The translations under genes were made by a program, and so were the position numbers. DNA of 64,000 nt. It comes from Oscillospiraceae bacterium (GTDB taxonomy: Bacteria > Bacillota > Clostridia > Oscillospirales > Ruminococcaceae). The notes under the pieces are model-generated. The model was not told the DNA's origin. It did no database searches and saw nothing but the letters and a program-made list of their open reading frames with translations. Every line of letters begins with the position of its first letter. Position 1 is the first letter of the stretch. The stretch covers positions 62,001 to 126,000 of the forward strand of contig SVMZ01000002.1 in the NCBI GenBank assembly GCA_015067185.1. Reading direction: 5' to 3'. Positions 3,148-40,967 of the stretch are shown here, piece after piece.

Positions 3148-5157
3148 TCACTTTTCTTTTCTCTTCAGCTCGTACATATCAAAAATATCCACTGCACGTG
3201 TCTGAAATACGGTATATCCCTTTTCTATTGAGAACGGTATTTCTTCACCGTCCGGCAACAGACGGATCGATGATACCTCCTCTTTCACTTTGACACTAAA
3301 AGGTGCTGCCGGTGTTGTGATAGCTTCTTCATCCAACACCATTAGATTTACCGTAATCTTTTCCTTATCTGTAAAAGCTGTAATTTCTACATTTTTCGGT
3401 GCATCAGAACAGAAGAAATAATCCGGCCTTCCTGCTATATGAAGCAGATTGACAAACACCTTCCTGTACTCCTCAAATTCGATTGCCTCCAACGGCACGG
3501 CAGACCAGATAACCTTTCCTTTTCCGTAATCATTGACGGTAACTGCCGGGACATCACTCGCTATTCCGGGTGGATCGGAATGGATTGCTGCATATTTGTC
3601 TTCCCGGTGCCTCGTGTATGGGAATGTCAGCGTTGCAAGAACCTTCGCCTCTCCGCACGCAACAATGGCCGCCTTTGTTTCCATCACCGGCAACGGATAT
3701 TTTCCGTTAAATTCACCGAATATCTCTTCATACCCCGCTTTAGGAGCAACGTATACACACCTCTCCTCATATTCGCTCATGTACACATGCCCGGTAAGCT
3801 CTTTCAGTAACGCAGTGTTATGTCCCCCACTCAGATATAAAACACCGCCGTTTCTGACATATTCAATCAGACGCTCGTTGTCCTTATCTTCCAGTTCAGA
3901 TAGTACGGGAGCGACAATAATTTTATATTGGGATAACTCATGGAATACCCCTGTCACACCAAAGGGAATATGTGCCCGGACGAGTGTTTTGGATGCATTT
4001 ACACAACATACGCGGGCATTTTCTTTCTCCACATAATTTCTACTTCGCAGTCCGTAGTATAAACCTATCTCCTCTACCATTTCCCCTGTAAAAAACGGCT
4101 CGTATTTTTTTTGGAATCGGAATATCTCCCCCACCTGCTCATAAACACGCCGGTCCATTGTTCCCACAGGATCTATCGCGTCAATCACCAGTGTTGCACC
4201 ATGATGTGCCATGGTAGATGACAATGCCGTCTTCATTTCATCTTTGGTTTTTGTAAGAGTATGAACACGGAGTTTCGGTTTACACCGGGAAAACATCTGC
4301 TCGAAGGGAGGATTCAGCGTTGCATTTTTAAAAAATTTACAGGCAAAAGAATGATTATATAAATTTCCGTAAAGATCTCCACCCACATAATCACATGCTG
4401 CTAACACTTCTTCGATACAAGCCGAACTTGTATCCCCTGCAACTGCATTGGCAAAGTTATGCTCTACTGGCATATCTGGCTGTCTCTTTTTCACATATCC
4501 CGTAATCGATTGGACAAATTCTCCCATTGACTTTGCCTTGAATTCCACCAACTCACGGTTTATTTCTTTCGGAATTTCTCCGCCGTACGCTTTTTGACAT
4601 GCATCACAATAACAGGTATGCGGCCAGTACGGCATATCAAAAAACAAGGCATCGCACTCAAAATAATCCAATATCTCATCAATCTGATTATATACAAACT
4701 GCCGATATTCCATATTATTGGGACAGCAATGACCATACCTGCTGCCGTTGACATTGACAAAAGCCAACCCTTTCCCTCCTTCTTTGCCTTCCCTCGCAGA
4801 AAAGCCATCCTCTTTCTTCATTCGCCATAAAGGATGTCTATCATGTTCTCTGGTATTATAAATCAAGCTATAGTATCCACACACCCTGATTCCATTCCGG
4901 TGACATAAATCAACCACACGCTTGATCATATCGGGTTGTTTCTCTATCTGCTTATGCATCACACCAACTTTAGTCGGATAATAGCAGAGCCCCACATGAG
5001 ACTGCAAATAAATCATAGCATAATTGATTTCTGCCTTTTTCAAATTTTCCACATATACTTCAGGAGAAAATTCCGATAAAAAATCGTCACTCCAATCTTC
5101 TATATGCATATCCAAAAGATGCCTTCTATACAGCTGAGAATACCACATGCTCATCAC
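3148..5157 (-). CDS. Putative glycoside hydrolase (TIM-barrel catalytic domain plus beta-galactosidase-trimerisation-like domain)
   Basis: 669-aa ORF; DALFFDMPYWPHTCYCDACQ and later YVRNGGVLYLSGG segments typical of GHL6/beta-galactosidase-trimerisation-like proteins. Confidence 0.6.
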   Translation of the reverse strand: MMSMWYSQLYRRHLLDMHIEDWSDDFLSEFSPEVYVENLKKAEINYAMIYLQSHVGLCYYPTKVGVMHKQIEKQPDMIKRVVDLCHRNGIRVCGYYSLIYNTREHDRHPLWRMKKEDGFSAREGKEGGKGLAFVNVNGSRYGHCCPNNMEYRQFVYNQIDEILDYFECDALFFDMPYWPHTCYCDACQKAYGGEIPKEINRELVEFKAKSMGEFVQSITGYVKKRQPDMPVEHNFANAVAGDTSSACIEEVLAACDYVGGDLYGNLYNHSFACKFFKNATLNPPFEQMFSRCKPKLRVHTLTKTKDEMKTALSSTMAHHGATLVIDAIDPVGTMDRRVYEQVGEIFRFQKKYEPFFTGEMVEEIGLYYGLRSRNYVEKENARVCCVNASKTLVRAHIPFGVTGVFHELSQYKIIVAPVLSELEDKDNERLIEYVRNGGVLYLSGGHNTALLKELTGHVYMSEYEERCVYVAPKAGYEEIFGEFNGKYPLPVMETKAAIVACGEAKVLATLTFPYTRHREDKYAAIHSDPPGIASDVPAVTVNDYGKGKVIWSAVPLEAIEFEEYRKVFVNLLHIAGRPDYFFCSDAPKNVEITAFTDKEKITVNLMVLDEEAITTPAAPFSVKVKEEVSSIRLLPDGEEIPFSIEKGYTVFQTRAVDIFDMYELKRKEK

Positions 5158-5311
5158 TCCTTTTTTTTAATTTTAACATATTCCCTCCGAAAAAAACAGG
5201 GACTTATAACCGCAAAAACAGCATTTTAGTTAACCCACTTTATGTTATCCCTCTATCCTATGCTATCCTGCAACATAAAAATTGAGCCCAGGAAATTACC
5301 TGAGCTCAGTT

Positions 5312-6610
5312 TCATTTCTCCAAATAAAGCAAATTAAAGTGTTCTGCAAGCCAACATGTCATTCTTTTATTGATTTCAAAAACTGCCGCCAGCTTTTCCT
5401 GTTCTGCAAAGTAAGCTACGCAAATCAGTTGATTGGCAAAGAGGATATAAGGAACTGCTTTTCTCTCTTCTTCCGTCATTCCGGCTGCACTATCATATCC
5501 TTTCATGATATAACGGTATATCTCAAACCACTTTTCCCGATACTTTTCGAAGCCTTCCAGCAAAATTGCTGTTGCCGCATAACAGGGGTCATATATCCGC
5601 ACATTTCGTTCTGACAATTCAAAATCTATAAAACTCCATTCTTTTTCTTTATCCTCTGAACAGATAATGTTTCCAGGATTGGGGTCCCGGTGAATCAATT
5701 GTCTGGGCAGCTTATCATGTAACCTCTCCAAATTTTTGATATACTCCTGACAAAATACGTCCTTTAAATTCAGTATTTCCTTTGCTTTCGGAAGCGCCCA
5801 TTCTTTCACATTCTTATAGATATTCGTATCCCGGATCGGTACATCCACTCCGCGCAGAGCTGTATGAAGCTTTCCTATCTTCTCTCCTATCAGCCTCGCA
5901 CATTCCAAAGAATTACTTTCATACAAAGCTGCTGTACTCAGCTGCTTTCCCGGCAGCCGTCTGGTAAGGCAAAAATATACTTCTCCCTCCTGCATATATT
6001 CTTTTCCGTTATTTGTTGCAATTGGGACTGCGGCACACAACCCCGCTTTTTCAATCTCCTTGGATAACGTTATATTATTTTTTAGTTTTCCAAGGTTTGC
6101 TGTAAATTTCAAAACATAGTCTTCTCCGACATAATAGGCATTATCGTTTTTATTTCCGGTTCCTTCGTAATAGATATCTGATATTACTATCTTTTCCAAA
6201 TTCCAATGCTTCAATATCTCCGCAGCTTTTTTATGGGTTATCATGATGTGTTCCTCCTTTGTCAGCTCTATCCGGTAAGGCTTTTTTGCCTGGCAGGATC
6301 TCAAAAAAGCGGACGGAGTACAACCGAATTCACGTCGAAATGCCTTGTAAAAACCGGCATAGGTATCAAAGCCATAGGTGAGTGCTGCGTCAATCCCTTT
6401 GCTTCCGCAGTGTATTCCGTAAATGGCATGCAGTAGCCTGCGTCGAAGAACATACTGCATCACGGGCATCCCCGTTGCCGATTGGAACATTCTGTAATAG
6501 TGATAGAGTGAAAACCCTGCCTTTTCCGCCAACTCAGCAGCCGTGATCTCTGCCCTCAGGTTATCCTCAATGTAATCCAAACTTTGCTGTATAATTCTTT
6601 TATATTCCAT
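5312..6610 (-). CDS. Fusion protein: N-terminal AraC-type HTH DNA-binding domain plus C-terminal aminoglycoside phosphotransferase-like (APH) kinase domain
   Basis: Double-HTH AraC region (AELAEKAGFSLYHYYRMFQ...DAALTYGFDTYAGFYKAFRREFGCTPSAF) then APH motif LIHRDPNPGNII; start chosen at M18 of the ORF, preceded by an AAGGAGAAGG ribosome-binding site. Confidence 0.85.
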   Translation of the reverse strand: MEYKRIIQQSLDYIEDNLRAEITAAELAEKAGFSLYHYYRMFQSATGMPVMQYVLRRRLLHAIYGIHCGSKGIDAALTYGFDTYAGFYKAFRREFGCTPSAFLRSCQAKKPYRIELTKEEHIMITHKKAAEILKHWNLEKIVISDIYYEGTGNKNDNAYYVGEDYVLKFTANLGKLKNNITLSKEIEKAGLCAAVPIATNNGKEYMQEGEVYFCLTRRLPGKQLSTAALYESNSLECARLIGEKIGKLHTALRGVDVPIRDTNIYKNVKEWALPKAKEILNLKDVFCQEYIKNLERLHDKLPRQLIHRDPNPGNIICSEDKEKEWSFIDFELSERNVRIYDPCYAATAILLEGFEKYREKWFEIYRYIMKGYDSAAGMTEEERKAVPYILFANQLICVAYFAEQEKLAAVFEINKRMTCWLAEHFNLLYLEK

Positions 6611-35175: not shown

Positions 35176-36585
35176 CTATTTGGAACGATTCAGTTGTTGT
35201 CTCATGGGATTCCATCTTCCGGATATATAGTAAATGGAAAACACTACAAATAACAACAGATTATGCGCAATCATACAGCCCCAGGCAGAAACAAGATCAA
35301 GCTGGAAAATCTGTGTACAGATAAAAGTTCCTACAATACGCACACACCACATACCGATAATATTGGTTATAAACGGCATAACTGTTCTTCCCATCCCCTG
35401 CATCATACCTTCAATAATGATAGAAAAACCATAGAACGGCTCAGATAATGCCACCATTCTCAGAACAGTCGTACCAAGCAGAATAACCTGTATATCTCTG
35501 GAAAACAACTTCATCATCGTTGGCGCTACCGCAAACAATGCTCCACCGGACAAAATCATCAACAACACTTCGATGAACAGCATCATTCTCGCAAGTTCTT
35601 TTAATTTTTTTCCGTCTTTTGCACCAAGAGAATTGCCGGCCAGTGTTGCTGCCGCGGTCTGCATACCGTAAGCAGGAATATAGAAAGCAGACTCCACCGT
35701 ATTGGCAATGGTATGGGCCGCTGTCGATATCTCTCCTAATGAATTGATCATTGCTGCAAAAGCAACATATCCAAGAGAGGTTCCAAAGCGCTGCAGAGCA
35801 TTGGGAATAGCTACCCGGATACAGGGAATCAGAATTGCTTTATCCGGACGCAGCGACTGGCCTTTGGGCGACAGCATGGGGTGTCTCCACAGTGCCACAG
35901 TGACACAAATTCCTCCAACTGCAAAAGCAATGGCACTGGCAATCGCCGCACCAATCACGCCCCATCCCATTCCCATTATTGTTATTTTTATAGAAAACAC
36001 TTCAATGATTCTCGTCTCATAAATAAACAGGAAATTAAGCACGACATTGACAATATTCACCAACACCCCAACCCGCATGGGGGTTTTGGTATCCCCTGCT
36101 GCCCTGAGTACCGTTCCAAATATAATACTGGCCGTTCGTGGCAGCATAGGAAGATATAGAATAAAAAAATATTTTGCCGCAATGGGACGAATACCGCTTT
36201 CCACCTGCATCCACACAGGGATTCTTCCACTCAACGAGAGCGTTAGAACAGTAAAAAACACACCACAAACCAATACAGCCAGAACAGCCTGTGCCGAAGT
36301 CCGCCTAGTCTTCTCCTTTTCCTTTGCTCCTGCAGCCTGAGAAATAAAAGCCAAAAAACCTACGCTGACAGCAGAGATCGTGCTTCCAATCAACCAGTTT
36401 ACAGTTGTTGTGGAACCTACGGCTGCTGTTGCTTCTGTACCCAGAGTGCCCACCATCGCAGTATCAATATACTGCACCGCTGTCTGCATCAATTGTTCCA
36501 ACATGGTCGGCCATGCCAAGACAAAGATAGTGGGAAGCAGGTGCCACGGCATATTTAAAAAACCTCTTTTTTTCATCTCAGCCAT
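35176..36585 (-). CDS. MATE-family efflux transporter
   Basis: Polytopic membrane protein with two homologous halves (PTMLEQLMQTAVQYIDTAMVG); start ATG overlaps the upstream gene's stop (ATGGCTGA). Confidence 0.9.
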   Translation of the reverse strand: MAEMKKRGFLNMPWHLLPTIFVLAWPTMLEQLMQTAVQYIDTAMVGTLGTEATAAVGSTTTVNWLIGSTISAVSVGFLAFISQAAGAKEKEKTRRTSAQAVLAVLVCGVFFTVLTLSLSGRIPVWMQVESGIRPIAAKYFFILYLPMLPRTASIIFGTVLRAAGDTKTPMRVGVLVNIVNVVLNFLFIYETRIIEVFSIKITIMGMGWGVIGAAIASAIAFAVGGICVTVALWRHPMLSPKGQSLRPDKAILIPCIRVAIPNALQRFGTSLGYVAFAAMINSLGEISTAAHTIANTVESAFYIPAYGMQTAAATLAGNSLGAKDGKKLKELARMMLFIEVLLMILSGGALFAVAPTMMKLFSRDIQVILLGTTVLRMVALSEPFYGFSIIIEGMMQGMGRTVMPFITNIIGMWCVRIVGTFICTQIFQLDLVSAWGCMIAHNLLLFVVFSIYYISGRWNPMRQQLNRSK

Positions 36586-37414
36586 TTTGCACCTCAATGA
36601 TACAGCTGCTTTGTTCTGTCAAAATCATTTCCTGTACGGAGGGAACAACAATTTTTCCTTCTTTTGGATTTTTGATACTGATAACCGGTGTTGTAATATC
36701 TGCCTCTACTGTTGATTTTTCAAAAGCAAAATCTGCACCATGCATTTCACAGTTGATAAGCTTCAAATTCTTGCAATAGCATAACGGCTGTGTTCCCTCT
36801 ATAACACAATTTTCAAAAGTGACATTCTCGCAGTACCAAGCCAAATATTCACCCTTGATCACACTGTTTTTTACCAACACATTTTTTGCATGCCAAAAGG
36901 CATCCTTGGTATCAAAACGGCAGTTTTCAAAAACAGAATCGGTTATGTATTGAAAGGAATATTTCCCATTCAGTGTCACATCATGGAAATTCAACTTTTG
37001 CGCGCGCAGCATAAAATATTCTCCCTCTGCGCTGCTTTTTTCCATATTGATATCACAGGAAAACCATCCAAACTCCGGAGAACGGATATTACATCCTTTT
37101 ATGATTATTTCCCTGCATTCCCGCAAGGCTTTTATCCCGTGAAGTCTGGAATCCGCTATCATAATCCTCTCCGAATACCACAGCGCAGCACGGCAGAACT
37201 CTGTCATCTCACAATTTTGAATATTCACATCCATATCGTGCCAGAAAGGATACCTTAAATTGAAAAAACAGTTTTCGGCTGTTATCCCGCTGCTTTCCTT
37301 GAAAGCACTTTCTCCATCAGCCGGACCATCAAAACGGCATGCCACGGCATATACCCCACGACTTCCATAAAGTGCTCTCTCTTCATCAAAGTTTTTTCCT
37401 GTTATTATCTTCAT
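36578..37414 (-). CDS. DUF3737-like beta-helix protein
   Basis: Repeated FxNCxF/xNCxI pattern; GKNFDEERALYGSRGVYAVACRFDGPADGESAFKE; start chosen at MKIITGK. Confidence 0.75.
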   Translation of the reverse strand: MKIITGKNFDEERALYGSRGVYAVACRFDGPADGESAFKESSGITAENCFFNLRYPFWHDMDVNIQNCEMTEFCRAALWYSERIMIADSRLHGIKALRECREIIIKGCNIRSPEFGWFSCDINMEKSSAEGEYFMLRAQKLNFHDVTLNGKYSFQYITDSVFENCRFDTKDAFWHAKNVLVKNSVIKGEYLAWYCENVTFENCVIEGTQPLCYCKNLKLINCEMHGADFAFEKSTVEADITTPVISIKNPKEGKIVVPSVQEMILTEQSSCIIEVQNG

Positions 37415-37621
37415 TCTTTCTGCCTCTTCAGTTCGTTGATTCTCACGTTTATCATAAAGCAGCAGCCGTCCGCAAAACGGGCAGCTGCTTTCGTTTATCC
37501 CAGTTACACATTCCAAAAGCATCTTTTCTAACCGTTTTTCTGGAGTATGCACTTTCTTTTTGTTTATAAATAAAGTATATCACAGCTTGCTTTAACACGC
37601 AAGTTTGTTTTGATTTATTTA

Positions 37622-37650
37622 TTGTCTTTCTCTCTTTTTTATGGTATAAT
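37622..37650 (+). promoter_or_regulatory. Sigma-A-type promoter
   Basis: TTGTCT-17 bp-TATAAT (TGG TATAAT). Confidence 0.65.
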
Positions 37651-37768
37651 ATCATCTGCTGGCTCGGAAGGCAAAGCATTCATCGGAAATGTTGCGCCGG
37701 ATAAGGCTGCAGGCTGGAATGTCTGCCCTTGTTCGGTCTTTTTATATGGGTTTATGGAGGTTTTAACA

Positions 37769-39115
37769 TTGAAAAAAAATACTGATCTTACTGAGGGCAG
37801 TATTGCCCAAAAACTAATTCGTTTTGCTGTTCCCATTTTCTTTGCCCTGTTTTTGCAATCTCTTTACGGCGGCGTTGACCTGCTGATTGTAGGGCGGTTT
37901 GCCGAAACAGCAGATGTATCCGGCGTTTCCTCCGGCAGTCAGCTGATGCAGACCATCACAATGGTCATTACCGGTCTTGCCATGGGCATTACCATCTATG
38001 TTGCCCAATGCATCGGAAGAAAAAATCGGCAGGACGCAGGCAAAGCAATTGGCTTTTCCATTTATCTTTTTACACTGATTGGTATCGTCATGTCTCTTGT
38101 CATTGGCATCTTCAGCAGTATGTTTACCAAACTTATCAATGCCCCTGCCGAAGCTGTTACCCAAACCAATATGTATATCAAAATCTGCGGCTTTGGCTCT
38201 CTGTTTATCGTAGCATATAACATCCTCGGCGCCATCTTTCGTGGAATCGGTGATTCCAAAACCCCGCTGCTGGCTGTGGGTATTTCCTGTCTTCTCAATA
38301 TCATCGGTGATTTGCTTTTTGTCGCCGTCTTTCATATGGGTGCAGCCGGAGCCGCTCTTGCCACTGTCCTCTCTCAAGGAATCAGCGTCTTCCTCTCCAT
38401 TGTGATCATTCTTAAACGCGAACTTCCCTTCGACTTTAAAAAGGAGTACATCCGTTTCAGTAAATTTCTGGCTTGTCAGGTTATTAAACTCGGTCTGCCT
38501 ATTGCGCTGCAGGAATTACTTGTTGGCCTTTCCTTTACGGTGATTCAAGTGGTAGCAAACGGTTTTGACGTGGTTTCTTCTGCAGGAGTTGGTGTCGGCA
38601 GTAAACTTTGCGGATTTATCCTGTTGATTCCCTCTGCTTATATGCAGGCAGTCGCAACCTTTGTGGATCAAAATCTCTCTGCCGGTAAACCCGACCGCGT
38701 AAAAAAATCCATGCATTTTGCCATCGGAAGTGCCCTTGCTCTCGGTCTTTTCATTGCCGTCTTCTCCTTCTTCAAAGGAGATCTTCTTACTGCTATCTTC
38801 GCTAAAGACCCTGCTGTCATCGAAGCATCTTTCCAGTACCTTAAAGGCTATGCCATTGACTGCATCTTTGTCTCCATACTCTTCTGTATGATTGGTTATT
38901 TCAATGGTCGCGGAGATACCTTCTTTGTTATGGTTCAAGGATTGGTCGGTGCTATCGTCATCCGTGTTCCTGTTGCTCTTCTGATGAGTTCTCTTACCAA
39001 CACGTCGTTATTCCTCATCGGTCTTGCCACTCCCTGTGCCAGCCTTGTGCAAATTCTGCTCTGCTTCGGTTATCTGTTCCTCTCCCGCAAAAAATCTTTG
39101 CAGCCCACCAATTGA
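37769..39115 (+). CDS. MATE-family efflux transporter
   Basis: LTEGSIAQKLIRFAVPIFFALFLQSLYGGVDLLIVGRF; probable TTG start 8 nt after GGAGG (alternative ATG at 37754). Confidence 0.9.
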   Translation: MKKNTDLTEGSIAQKLIRFAVPIFFALFLQSLYGGVDLLIVGRFAETADVSGVSSGSQLMQTITMVITGLAMGITIYVAQCIGRKNRQDAGKAIGFSIYLFTLIGIVMSLVIGIFSSMFTKLINAPAEAVTQTNMYIKICGFGSLFIVAYNILGAIFRGIGDSKTPLLAVGISCLLNIIGDLLFVAVFHMGAAGAALATVLSQGISVFLSIVIILKRELPFDFKKEYIRFSKFLACQVIKLGLPIALQELLVGLSFTVIQVVANGFDVVSSAGVGVGSKLCGFILLIPSAYMQAVATFVDQNLSAGKPDRVKKSMHFAIGSALALGLFIAVFSFFKGDLLTAIFAKDPAVIEASFQYLKGYAIDCIFVSILFCMIGYFNGRGDTFFVMVQGLVGAIVIRVPVALLMSSLTNTSLFLIGLATPCASLVQILLCFGYLFLSRKKSLQPTN

Positions 39116-39166: not shown

Positions 39167-39736
39167 TTACTCTACCAGCTTTACTCCATCCCACGCCTTC
39201 CGAATCATGGCATACTGAGCCATATCCCAAAACTCTCCTGTTTTGCTTTTAAAAACCTCTTTCTCGATCCCCTCCAATGTAAATCCGCATTTCTGTGCCA
39301 CTCTTCCGGATGCAGGATTTTTCAATGCGTGATGAATCACGATGCGGTGAACACCAATTTCCCCAAAAAGATAATCTCTGACTGCTTTGACCGCTTCTGT
39401 CATAATCCCTTTTCCCCAATTATCATATCCCATACAGTACCCCAGTTCAGCACTTTCATGCTTTTCATTCAACAGCACAACACTGATTCCTCCAATCGCC
39501 CTGCCTTCTAACTCTATAACCCAGTTATAGCAGTTCTTCTCCTGATAAGCCGCACACCAAGTTTTCAAAATCTCTTTTGTCAGTTCTATCGACCCATGCG
39601 GTTCCCATGTAAGAAATCTGGTCACCCGCTCATCATTAGCCCAGTTATAAAACATATCTGCCGCATCATCCACAGCAAAGCGCCTTAGAATCAACCTTTC
39701 TGTTTTCAGTGTTTGTGTTCCTTTATGTGTCATCAT
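39167..39736 (-). CDS. GNAT N-acetyltransferase (RimJ/RimL-like)
   Basis: TERLILRRFAVDDAADMF, YCMGYDNWGKGIMTEAVKAV, ALKNPASGRVAQKCGF. Confidence 0.9.
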   Translation of the reverse strand: MMTHKGTQTLKTERLILRRFAVDDAADMFYNWANDERVTRFLTWEPHGSIELTKEILKTWCAAYQEKNCYNWVIELEGRAIGGISVVLLNEKHESAELGYCMGYDNWGKGIMTEAVKAVRDYLFGEIGVHRIVIHHALKNPASGRVAQKCGFTLEGIEKEVFKSKTGEFWDMAQYAMIRKAWDGVKLVE

Positions 39737-39741
39737 TTTAT

Positions 39742-40533
39742 TCAATCCTTTCTGAAAATATCCAATGTGTGGTGAGAATACCCCGACAGGTCAACCCTCT
39801 CACAGGTTGCAAGATGATATCTGATAAACATGTTATATCTCTCTTCTTCCATATTCGCCAAGGTATCACGCATATGATTGGCATAACCATCCGTCGCAAC
39901 ATAATGCAGCTGTGTAACAGGAAACTGCGAACGCAGTTCATCAATCTCTTCCTTACGATACAACTCAAATATATCCCAAGGATTGGAAAAGGTTTCAAAA
40001 GTCTCGGTATTAAGCATACATTTTTCTATAATATCCCAAATCATTCCTTTTCCAAAACCATAGCTGAGAATACTGGCATCTCCCATACAATATGTAGCAA
40101 AAATGATTCCCCCCTTCTTTGTCACCCTTATCGCTTCTGATAACGCCTTCCATTGATCCTCTTTCGTAAACAGATGATACATCGGTCCCAGCAGCAATGT
40201 TATATCATAACTCTCTGCTGTAAACATGGAAAGATCTGTCGCATTTCCCTGAATGATCGTAATTTGCTCTCCCTCTTTCGTATTTTCTCTGAACAACTGG
40301 ATATTGTGCTCCAATAGTTCTACAGCATCCACCCGATACCCCTTTTCTGCCAATGCATGGCTATATCTTCCTGTTGCTGCACCAATTTCCAGAATTCTCA
40401 TTCCTTTTTGCAAATACCTTTCGATATAGTGCATGGTTGTCAGATACTCCACCATACCGTGTCGGGTAGTAAGCCGTCCATCTTCATCGTAATTTTCATA
40501 ATACGCAGACAGATATTCTTTTGTCATCATCAT
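39742..40533 (-). CDS. Class I SAM-dependent methyltransferase
   Basis: ILEIGAATGRYSHALAEKGYRVDAVE motif I; LLGPMYHL; AAAGGAG ribosome-binding site. Confidence 0.9.
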   Translation of the reverse strand: MMMTKEYLSAYYENYDEDGRLTTRHGMVEYLTTMHYIERYLQKGMRILEIGAATGRYSHALAEKGYRVDAVELLEHNIQLFRENTKEGEQITIIQGNATDLSMFTAESYDITLLLGPMYHLFTKEDQWKALSEAIRVTKKGGIIFATYCMGDASILSYGFGKGMIWDIIEKCMLNTETFETFSNPWDIFELYRKEEIDELRSQFPVTQLHYVATDGYANHMRDTLANMEEERYNMFIRYHLATCERVDLSGYSHHTLDIFRKD

Positions 40534-40550
40534 TCCATCTCCTTTGTTAT

Positions 40551-40596
40551 AAATAAAAAACAGTGCGGCTAAACCAACACGTTCAGCTCACACTGT
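40551..40596 (-). terminator. Intrinsic terminator (candidate attenuator) between promoter and methyltransferase gene
   Basis: Minus strand CAGTGTG-A-GCTGAAC GTGTTG GTTTAGC-CGCACTG TTTTTT. Confidence 0.82.
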
Positions 40597-40627
40597 GTAT
40601 CCTCTGTTAATCCCTCTCAGCTTGCTG

Positions 40628-40756
40628 TTAAAAGACAGCCTTCTGTTTTTCAAAAACAAAGTATGACAATGTAAGCCTGTTTCCACACCACATTCCCATG
40701 GTTGGAACAGACTGCATGACGACTGCTGTATTAACAATAATACTGCGTACCGACAT
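40628..40756 (-). CDS. Unannotated leader peptide ORF, 42 aa: MSVRSIIVNTAVVMQSVPTMGMWCGNRLTLSYFVFEKQKAVF
   Basis: GGAGG 8 nt before ATG; downstream of a consensus promoter and upstream of a terminator; below the ORF-track length cut-off. Confidence 0.65.
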   Translation of the reverse strand: MSVRSIIVNTAVVMQSVPTMGMWCGNRLTLSYFVFEKQKAVF

Positions 40757-40782
40757 TGTCATAACCTCCGAAAATTTTCTAC

Positions 40783-40811
40783 ATTATAGCATTGTCTCTC
40801 TTTTTTGTCAA
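40783..40811 (-). promoter_or_regulatory. Consensus sigma-A promoter
   Basis: TTGACA (40811-40806) - 17 bp - TATAAT (40788-40783). Confidence 0.85.
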
Positions 40812-40967
40812 CTCTTCTCATAAAAACATTCTCATAGCATCTGTATGTTTTCTTATCAAAATGTTCTCATTTTCTACTTCTTTTCTCAAATCTCTGTATT
40901 TTAAAAAAGTTTATGCTATAATTTCCTCAGGACTTTTATCTACCATCTATTATGAAAGGAGAAATAT

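Follow-up and report, generated by a model that had tools for sequence, protein, structure and literature searches.

Leader-peptide regulation of erm and cat genes proceeds by translational attenuation and relies on drug-specific stalling peptides. Ribosome-mediated transcription attenuation of an antibiotic resistance gene, with Trp codons in the leader, is known from trpRS1 of S. coelicolor, which provides indolmycin resistance. In the attenuators of the ARE-ABCF genes cplR, vmlR, vga(A), and lsa(A), the start of an upstream ORF (uORF) lies in a 5' hairpin, and ribosome arrest opens the terminator; these uORFs, which stand before ABC-F genes, have only 3 to 4 codons and specify a conserved peptide, MRI or MIN (PMC10201436). 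The terminator of cplR, which is from Clostridia, also hides the Shine-Dalgarno (SD) sequence of the gene (PMC10201436). In E. coli, a single uORF upstream of topAI, toiL, reports many ribosome inhibitors and acts on translation and Rho (PMC12121999).

The region described here lies on the minus strand of a 64,000-nt stretch of DNA from an Oscillospiraceae bacterium (the window) and is flanked by a glycosidase-like gene and a gene for a methyltransferase. As judged from its sequence and that of its homologues, it is probably a ribosome-controlled transcription attenuator of a methyltransferase-GNAT operon that takes ribosome progress as its input, with translation-inhibiting natural products the most likely cause of a change in that progress. 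Four segments of the leader RNA would be involved: arm 1 at the leader start region, arm 2 in the 3' part of the leader ORF, and arms 3 and 4 in the terminator.

Like the cplR, vmlR, vga(A), and lsa(A) attenuators, the leader has a short ORF starting in a 5' hairpin and an intrinsic terminator before the gene, and arrest is proposed to free a terminator-opening strand. However, the ORF here has 22 to 45 codons across the family and runs through arm 2, its peptide is not conserved, the cargo consists of modifying enzymes, and, unlike in cplR, the SD of the gene lies beyond the terminator rather than hidden in it. The exclusive 1:2, 2:3, and 3:4 helices, the first of which keeps the operon off if the leader is untranslated, resemble those of trp- and his-type attenuators, but there is no regulatory codon run (never more than one or two Trp codons), the leader stop codon comes after arm 2, and the genes are not biosynthetic. 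The S. coelicolor trpRS1 leader differs in being actinobacterial and Trp specific, with TrpRS itself as the target. As in toiL, the uORF is proposed to respond to ribosome arrest of many kinds, not to a single combination of drug and peptide; unlike toiL, the leader has an intrinsic terminator and belongs to a family common to many operons and species. The combination of a leader ORF with alternative helices before (here putative) resistance genes is shared with erm and cat, whereas transcription attenuation and a drifting peptide are not. Thus, the leader differs from known attenuators in its long, drifting ORF through arm 2, in its changing modifying-enzyme cargo, and in being one RNA family that extends across an order.

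Leader region of the methyltransferase operon

All features in this section are on the minus strand. The promoter proposed in a first-pass annotation of the window, TTGACA-17-TATAAT (40783..40811), matches the consensus at 12/12 positions, with the -35 element TTGACA at 40811-40806, a 17-nt spacer, and the -10 element TATAAT at 40788-40783. It was the best of 4 promoter-like sites in a consensus scan, compared with about 2, weaker, sites in shuffled sequences. The GGAGG and 42-aa leader ORF of the same annotation were also found. The SD (40765..40769) is separated by 8 nt from an ATG at 40756-40754, which opens an ORF of 42 codons plus a TAA stop codon at 40630-40628 (40628..40756), in the frame that is open in homologous leaders. 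An alternative in-frame ATG at 40762 would yield 44 aa but is merely 2 nt from the SD.

The 11-bp perfect inverted repeat was exactly where it had been placed. It pairs arm 1 (40753..40763), which overlaps the leader start codon, with positions 40672-40662 of arm 2 (40662..40677) to form helix P1, and the pairing is supported by covariation. The strong terminator upstream of the methyltransferase gene (P3 and U-run, 40555..40596) was confirmed as well; its stem (40596-40560) and U-run (40560-40555) have a folding energy of -22.1 kcal/mol (z -5.1 versus shuffles), and P3 is also paired in the homologues. A consensus terminator scanner did not list it, probably because of a bulged A in the stem. 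The SD of the methyltransferase gene is located beyond this terminator.

What the annotation had overlooked was the antiterminator helix, P2. Arm 2 is complementary to the 5' strand of the terminator as well, with GGCUUACAUUGU (40677-40666) pairing at 12/12 positions with ACAGUGUGAGCU (arm 3, 40596-40585; z -5.2 versus shuffles). The four arms of the leader can therefore form three mutually exclusive helices, namely a 1:2 anti-antiterminator, a 2:3 antiterminator, and a 3:4 terminator. Structure prediction on the entire leader transcript gave -77.3 kcal/mol (z -4.7), with 0/200 shuffles equally good, and the 1:2 region had a z-score of -4.0 versus shuffles. A GTATTA/TAATAC mini-hairpin that had been included in the structure is present in the window but appeared, by eye and uncounted, to be absent from the other aligned leaders. 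A Trp codon, UGG (40688..40690), is situated 13 nt before the arm 2 motif GGCUU.

Distribution of homologous leaders

The leader set consisted of 77 distinct homologues; its sources were a sample of 397 genomes of the order, 42 of which contributed, and loci reached via the methyltransferase. Covariance models (R1 and R2) were built on the SD-to-arm-2 part only and then run on the genome sets; because both models end at arm 2, the terminator and P2 were unselected and are independent findings. The leader was detected at an E value of ≤0.01, which is a rough value from a short calibration, in 42/397 genomes of the order (29/316 high-quality genomes), representing at least eight families. In a class-wide sample of 392 genomes, strong matches were confined to the same order. 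The sequences are mostly from metagenome-assembled genomes, and leaders within one clade are not independent of each other. One carrier, Negativibacillus massiliensis (L047), is a cultured species from the host's own family.

Genes for methyltransferase homologues with 64 to 77% identity had the same upstream anatomy with a different sequence, and homologues of about 60% identity or less were mostly without a leader. DNA similarity searches recovered no homologous leader outside the host's own genome. That genome contains a second copy on the minus strand (G000:C3:55480-55587, in L198, G000:C3:51000-56000), which has no Trp codon and is followed by genes for another methyltransferase, for a protein resembling 2'-5' RNA ligases, and for a P-loop kinase.

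Several candidates were rejected. DNA similarity matches L003-L005 had merely promoter-like or A/T-rich sequence in common, and weak covariance model matches with E values of about 0.001 or worse (L085-L088, L092-L099, L102-L121, and L123) lacked the anatomy when they were read. A protein scan of viral contigs had no matches, and the one match in a viral DNA pattern scan (L202) was phage coding sequence without a leader.

There was no match in the window to Rfam 15 at the gathering score, and a relaxed threshold added just a chance-level snoRNA match (E value, 6.7). No description of the leader family was found in the literature searched, which included little subscription literature, or of a uORF motif of this type in the passages searched of two structured-RNA discovery papers. 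From the sequences collected here, the leaders appear to represent a real, previously undescribed family of ribosome-mediated transcription attenuators, serving a probable resistance regulon.

Some loci carry remnants: at L039:2765-2871, arm 2 and the terminator persist, but the end of another gene has taken the place of the 5' half, and upstream of position 632 in L042 the terminator alone is kept. In L194 (G432:C48) and L064, the leader directly follows an unrelated gene and no separate promoter is evident, as though leader and cargo had been inserted as one unit. A nearly identical element of roughly 110 nt was observed in three genomes of one genus (L105, L106, and L109, about 1501-1608), where it is followed by different genes, two for kinases like those of leader operons and one for a protein that is GyrI-like by eye. 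This element is a weak covariance model match with no clear terminator and is perhaps another small-ORF regulator or a repeat.

Conservation of three mutually exclusive helices

In 28 aligned leaders, 84.9, 94.2, and 97.7% of the cells of P1, P2, and P3, respectively, were paired, compared with 11 to 49% when the partners were slid, and changes on both sides of all three helices exceeded nearly all shuffles. Comparison of cognate with non-cognate arms in 73 distinct leaders gave z-scores of -9.5 for P1, -7.3 for P2, and -16 for P3; the control pair, arm 1 with arm 3, had a z-score of -2.5, which is the contribution of relatedness alone. The best partner of arm 2 overlapped the 5' arm of the terminator in 76/77 leaders. 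Mean duplex energies were -12.5 (P1), -17.6 (P2), and -23.4 (P3) kcal/mol, and by this measure several leaders had a weak P1 or none (no better than shuffles in L162, L167, L184, L185, and L197). No aptamer-like conserved core was seen between the arms of the aligned leaders. The elements expected of an attenuator are thus found together: a leader ORF with SD and start codon, a terminator before the first gene, a P2 helix that shares a terminator strand, and a P1 helix that holds the antiterminator strand.

When a ribosome was simulated as a mask over the start codon of transcripts that stop short of arm 4, P1 was abolished and P2 was the stronger of the two in 77/77; P2 of the window transcript increased from 0.40 to 0.88. 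A mask at the stop codon did not favor P2 on average. In the full leader at equilibrium, P3 had a mean of 0.9 or more under every mask. Since P3 wins once the leader is complete, the antitermination decision must be kinetic and taken while transcription is under way, which is the normal situation for attenuators.

The annotation's proposal that a leader-ORF attenuator controls the methyltransferase-GNAT pair is therefore supported by 77 leaders with an open ORF, three covarying exclusive helices, and a terminator. With regard to conservation in homologues, the stems, the open ORF, and the terminator are kept, but the peptide sequence drifts.

Predicted translation of the leader

There was no in-frame stop codon before arm 2 in any of the leaders (0/77), compared with 63/77 for each of the other frames, and an SD-like sequence was found 5' of the start codon in nearly all homologous leaders. 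The leader stop codon was beyond the start of arm 2 in every case, usually 23 to 42 nt after it. The frame in which arm 2 is read varies among leaders, with all three in use (35/39/3 leaders), which means that arm 2 is kept as RNA. Almost no residues are common to leader peptides of different clades, and codon analysis of the leaders detected no signal at the peptide level; the synonymous fraction was near neutral (0.26 seen versus 0.21 expected in 18 independent close pairs). Therefore, the switch probably senses the progress of the ribosome and not a specific nascent chain. It seems, as far as comparison of sequences can tell, that the leader must be translated and that a particular peptide is not needed.

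In the mechanism that we propose, an RNA without a loaded ribosome would form 1:2, and 3:4 would then terminate transcription. A freely translating ribosome would pass through arm 2, as the position of the stop codon beyond the start of arm 2 implies, so that arm 2 could not hold arm 3 and 3:4 would again terminate. If the ribosome were arrested or slow before arm 2, arm 1 would be covered or held apart and arm 2 would be free when arm 3 emerges; 2:3 formed before arm 4 is made would let RNA polymerase read through into the enzyme genes. The simplest case would be arrest at or shortly after the leader start codon. Such arrest would most likely come from translation-inhibiting natural products, which the downstream enzymes would modify.

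Alternative explanations

AT-rich intergenic DNA often contains short repeats, and inverted repeats might lie upstream of an ordinary gene by chance, but fold z-scores of -4 to -5 and covariation among the 77 homologues leave practically no room for this explanation, which conservation refutes. The strongly conserved structure with a terminator at its end could also suggest a riboswitch or a protein-binding leader, with a short ORF that plays no role. We consider this highly improbable: the frame is open in every leader, the SD and start codon are in arm 1, and neither a conserved core of the aptamer type nor an Rfam match was found. Drug-specific nascent-chain stalling as in ermC or ermB, in which a particular peptide and a particular drug arrest the ribosome, would fit a leader ORF before putative resistance genes, and short peptide stretches such as VVMQSAVPAYYWQ do recur in one clade. 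However, a conserved arrest peptide of the erm type was not found among the leaders, the peptides being unrelated across clades. A peptide that drifts almost freely, with a near-neutral synonymous fraction, makes stalling of this specificity very unlikely.

Another explanation comes from the Trp codon. An in-frame Trp codon 10 to 16 nt before arm 2, mostly at 12 to 13 nt, was present in 50/77 leaders whatever the frame of arm 2, compared with three out-of-frame UGG triplets in this range, all at 11 nt. A ribosome waiting at this single codon, for want of charged tRNA-Trp or through inhibition of TrpRS, would just touch arm 2 with its front edge and leave it free for arm 3; in a simulation of the window leader, masking the 30 nt that precede arm 2 brought P2 to 0.98 before arm 4. 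This bias is not accounted for by a purely general sensor and counts against the reading of the leader as a general reporter of ribosome progress. A Trp attenuator is nevertheless rather unlikely: 27/77 leaders, including the second copy in the host genome, are without such a codon, there is as a rule a single Trp codon, and no gene for Trp metabolism or TrpRS was found among the leader cargo (methyltransferase, GNAT, kinase, nucleosidase, ANT(6), and S66). The codon preceded methyltransferase genes in 45/53 cases and was rare before other cargo, although the methyltransferase set was enriched by the mode of collection. Furthermore, in most leaders that have it, the UGG is predicted to fall in the 3' strand of a small hairpin; effects of codon and RNA are thus not separated, and a constraint on the RNA may explain the codon.

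Genes downstream of the leader

The first gene after the 77 leaders encodes a methyltransferase (53 leaders), a GNAT-methyltransferase fusion (5), a RimJ-like GNAT (5), a PNP-type nucleosidase (4), a P-loop kinase (3), or, in one case each, a tandem GNAT, an S51 peptidase, an S66 peptidase, or ANT(6); three were not assignable, and none was an ABC-F gene. The streptomycin adenylyltransferase ANT(6) clearly belongs to its family, with matches to Pfam Adenyl_transf (4.3e-104) and PDB 2pbe (1.1e-58), and its match to NCBIfam ANT_6 (5.9e-74) was below the cut-off of that model. The S66 protein was closest to MccF-like peptidases (PDB 4e5s, 4e-96). Longer operons (L036, L044, L054, L158, and L188) stack several types of cargo. 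The fusion proteins, of about 440 to 470 aa, are encoded by the first gene in L193, L192, L152, L154, and L163 and by L054 at 4356-5714. A family of P-loop proteins, C3 (GPHAVGKMTVGQELAKIT; first gene in L155, L036:4783-5382), recurs in leader operons and had no match in Pfam, NCBIfam, or PDB. No function could be assigned to the kinase from a search of solved structures.

In the window, the operon encodes a class I SAM-dependent methyltransferase of 263 aa (39742..40533, minus strand; Pfam Methyltransf_25, 1.7e-15, and Methyltransf_11, 2.9e-15) and a RimJ/RimL-like GNAT acetyltransferase of 189 aa (39167..39736, minus strand; Pfam Acetyltransf_3, 9.7e-36). The solved folds nearest to an AF2 model of the methyltransferase (pLDDT, 94) were of the small-molecule type (RebM, AtmM, MitM, and TleD) and the tRNA methyltransferase CmoM, and the search of solved structures gave no functional assignment. 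Both proteins were far below all curated NCBIfam cut-offs for resistance identity. The pairing of the two enzymes, which the first-pass annotation had treated as a unit, holds more widely. GNATs of the window type adjoin or are fused with the methyltransferase in many loci of other genomes, with a single fused protein in several, and this adjacency and fusion supports a joint function.

The ORF, the three exclusive helices, their covariation, the terminator, and the changing enzyme cargo can be read directly in the sequences; we infer arrest as the signal, drugs as the inducers, and detoxification as the output. Because the same switch precedes many different drug-modifying enzymes in dozens of related gut bacteria, it probably activates these genes in response to blocked ribosomes. 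Guilt by association with ANT(6), the MccF-like peptidase, several GNATs, and the kinase behind the same leader favors ribosome-targeting drugs as inducers and enzymes that confer resistance. In a broader and more tentative reading, which may well prove too general, one leader family would be a drug-agnostic sensor of translation arrest that has repeatedly been attached to a variety of small-molecule-modifying enzymes and that defines an entire regulon for inducible detoxification in this order of gut Clostridia. If so, the genes that follow the leader could serve as a guide to gut antibiotics and resistance enzymes that have yet to be discovered, and searches for the common translation-sensing leader would pick out inducible resistance genes that now escape every protein-based method. 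The leader would also predict that the substrates of the methyltransferase family, the GNAT-methyltransferase fusions, and the P-loop kinase stop ribosomes. Moreover, a leader that needs to be translated though its peptide hardly matters would help separate position-sensing from peptide-sensing attenuators.

Genes that by eye encode MATE-like transporters are located just downstream of the window operon (37610-39115, plus strand, and 35176-36597, minus strand), one of them convergent with the GNAT gene. Leaderless methyltransferase homologues were often preceded, again by eye, by a gene for a TetR-type regulator (L016:912-1484, L012, L021, and L023-L025), which would represent a different control of the same enzyme family.
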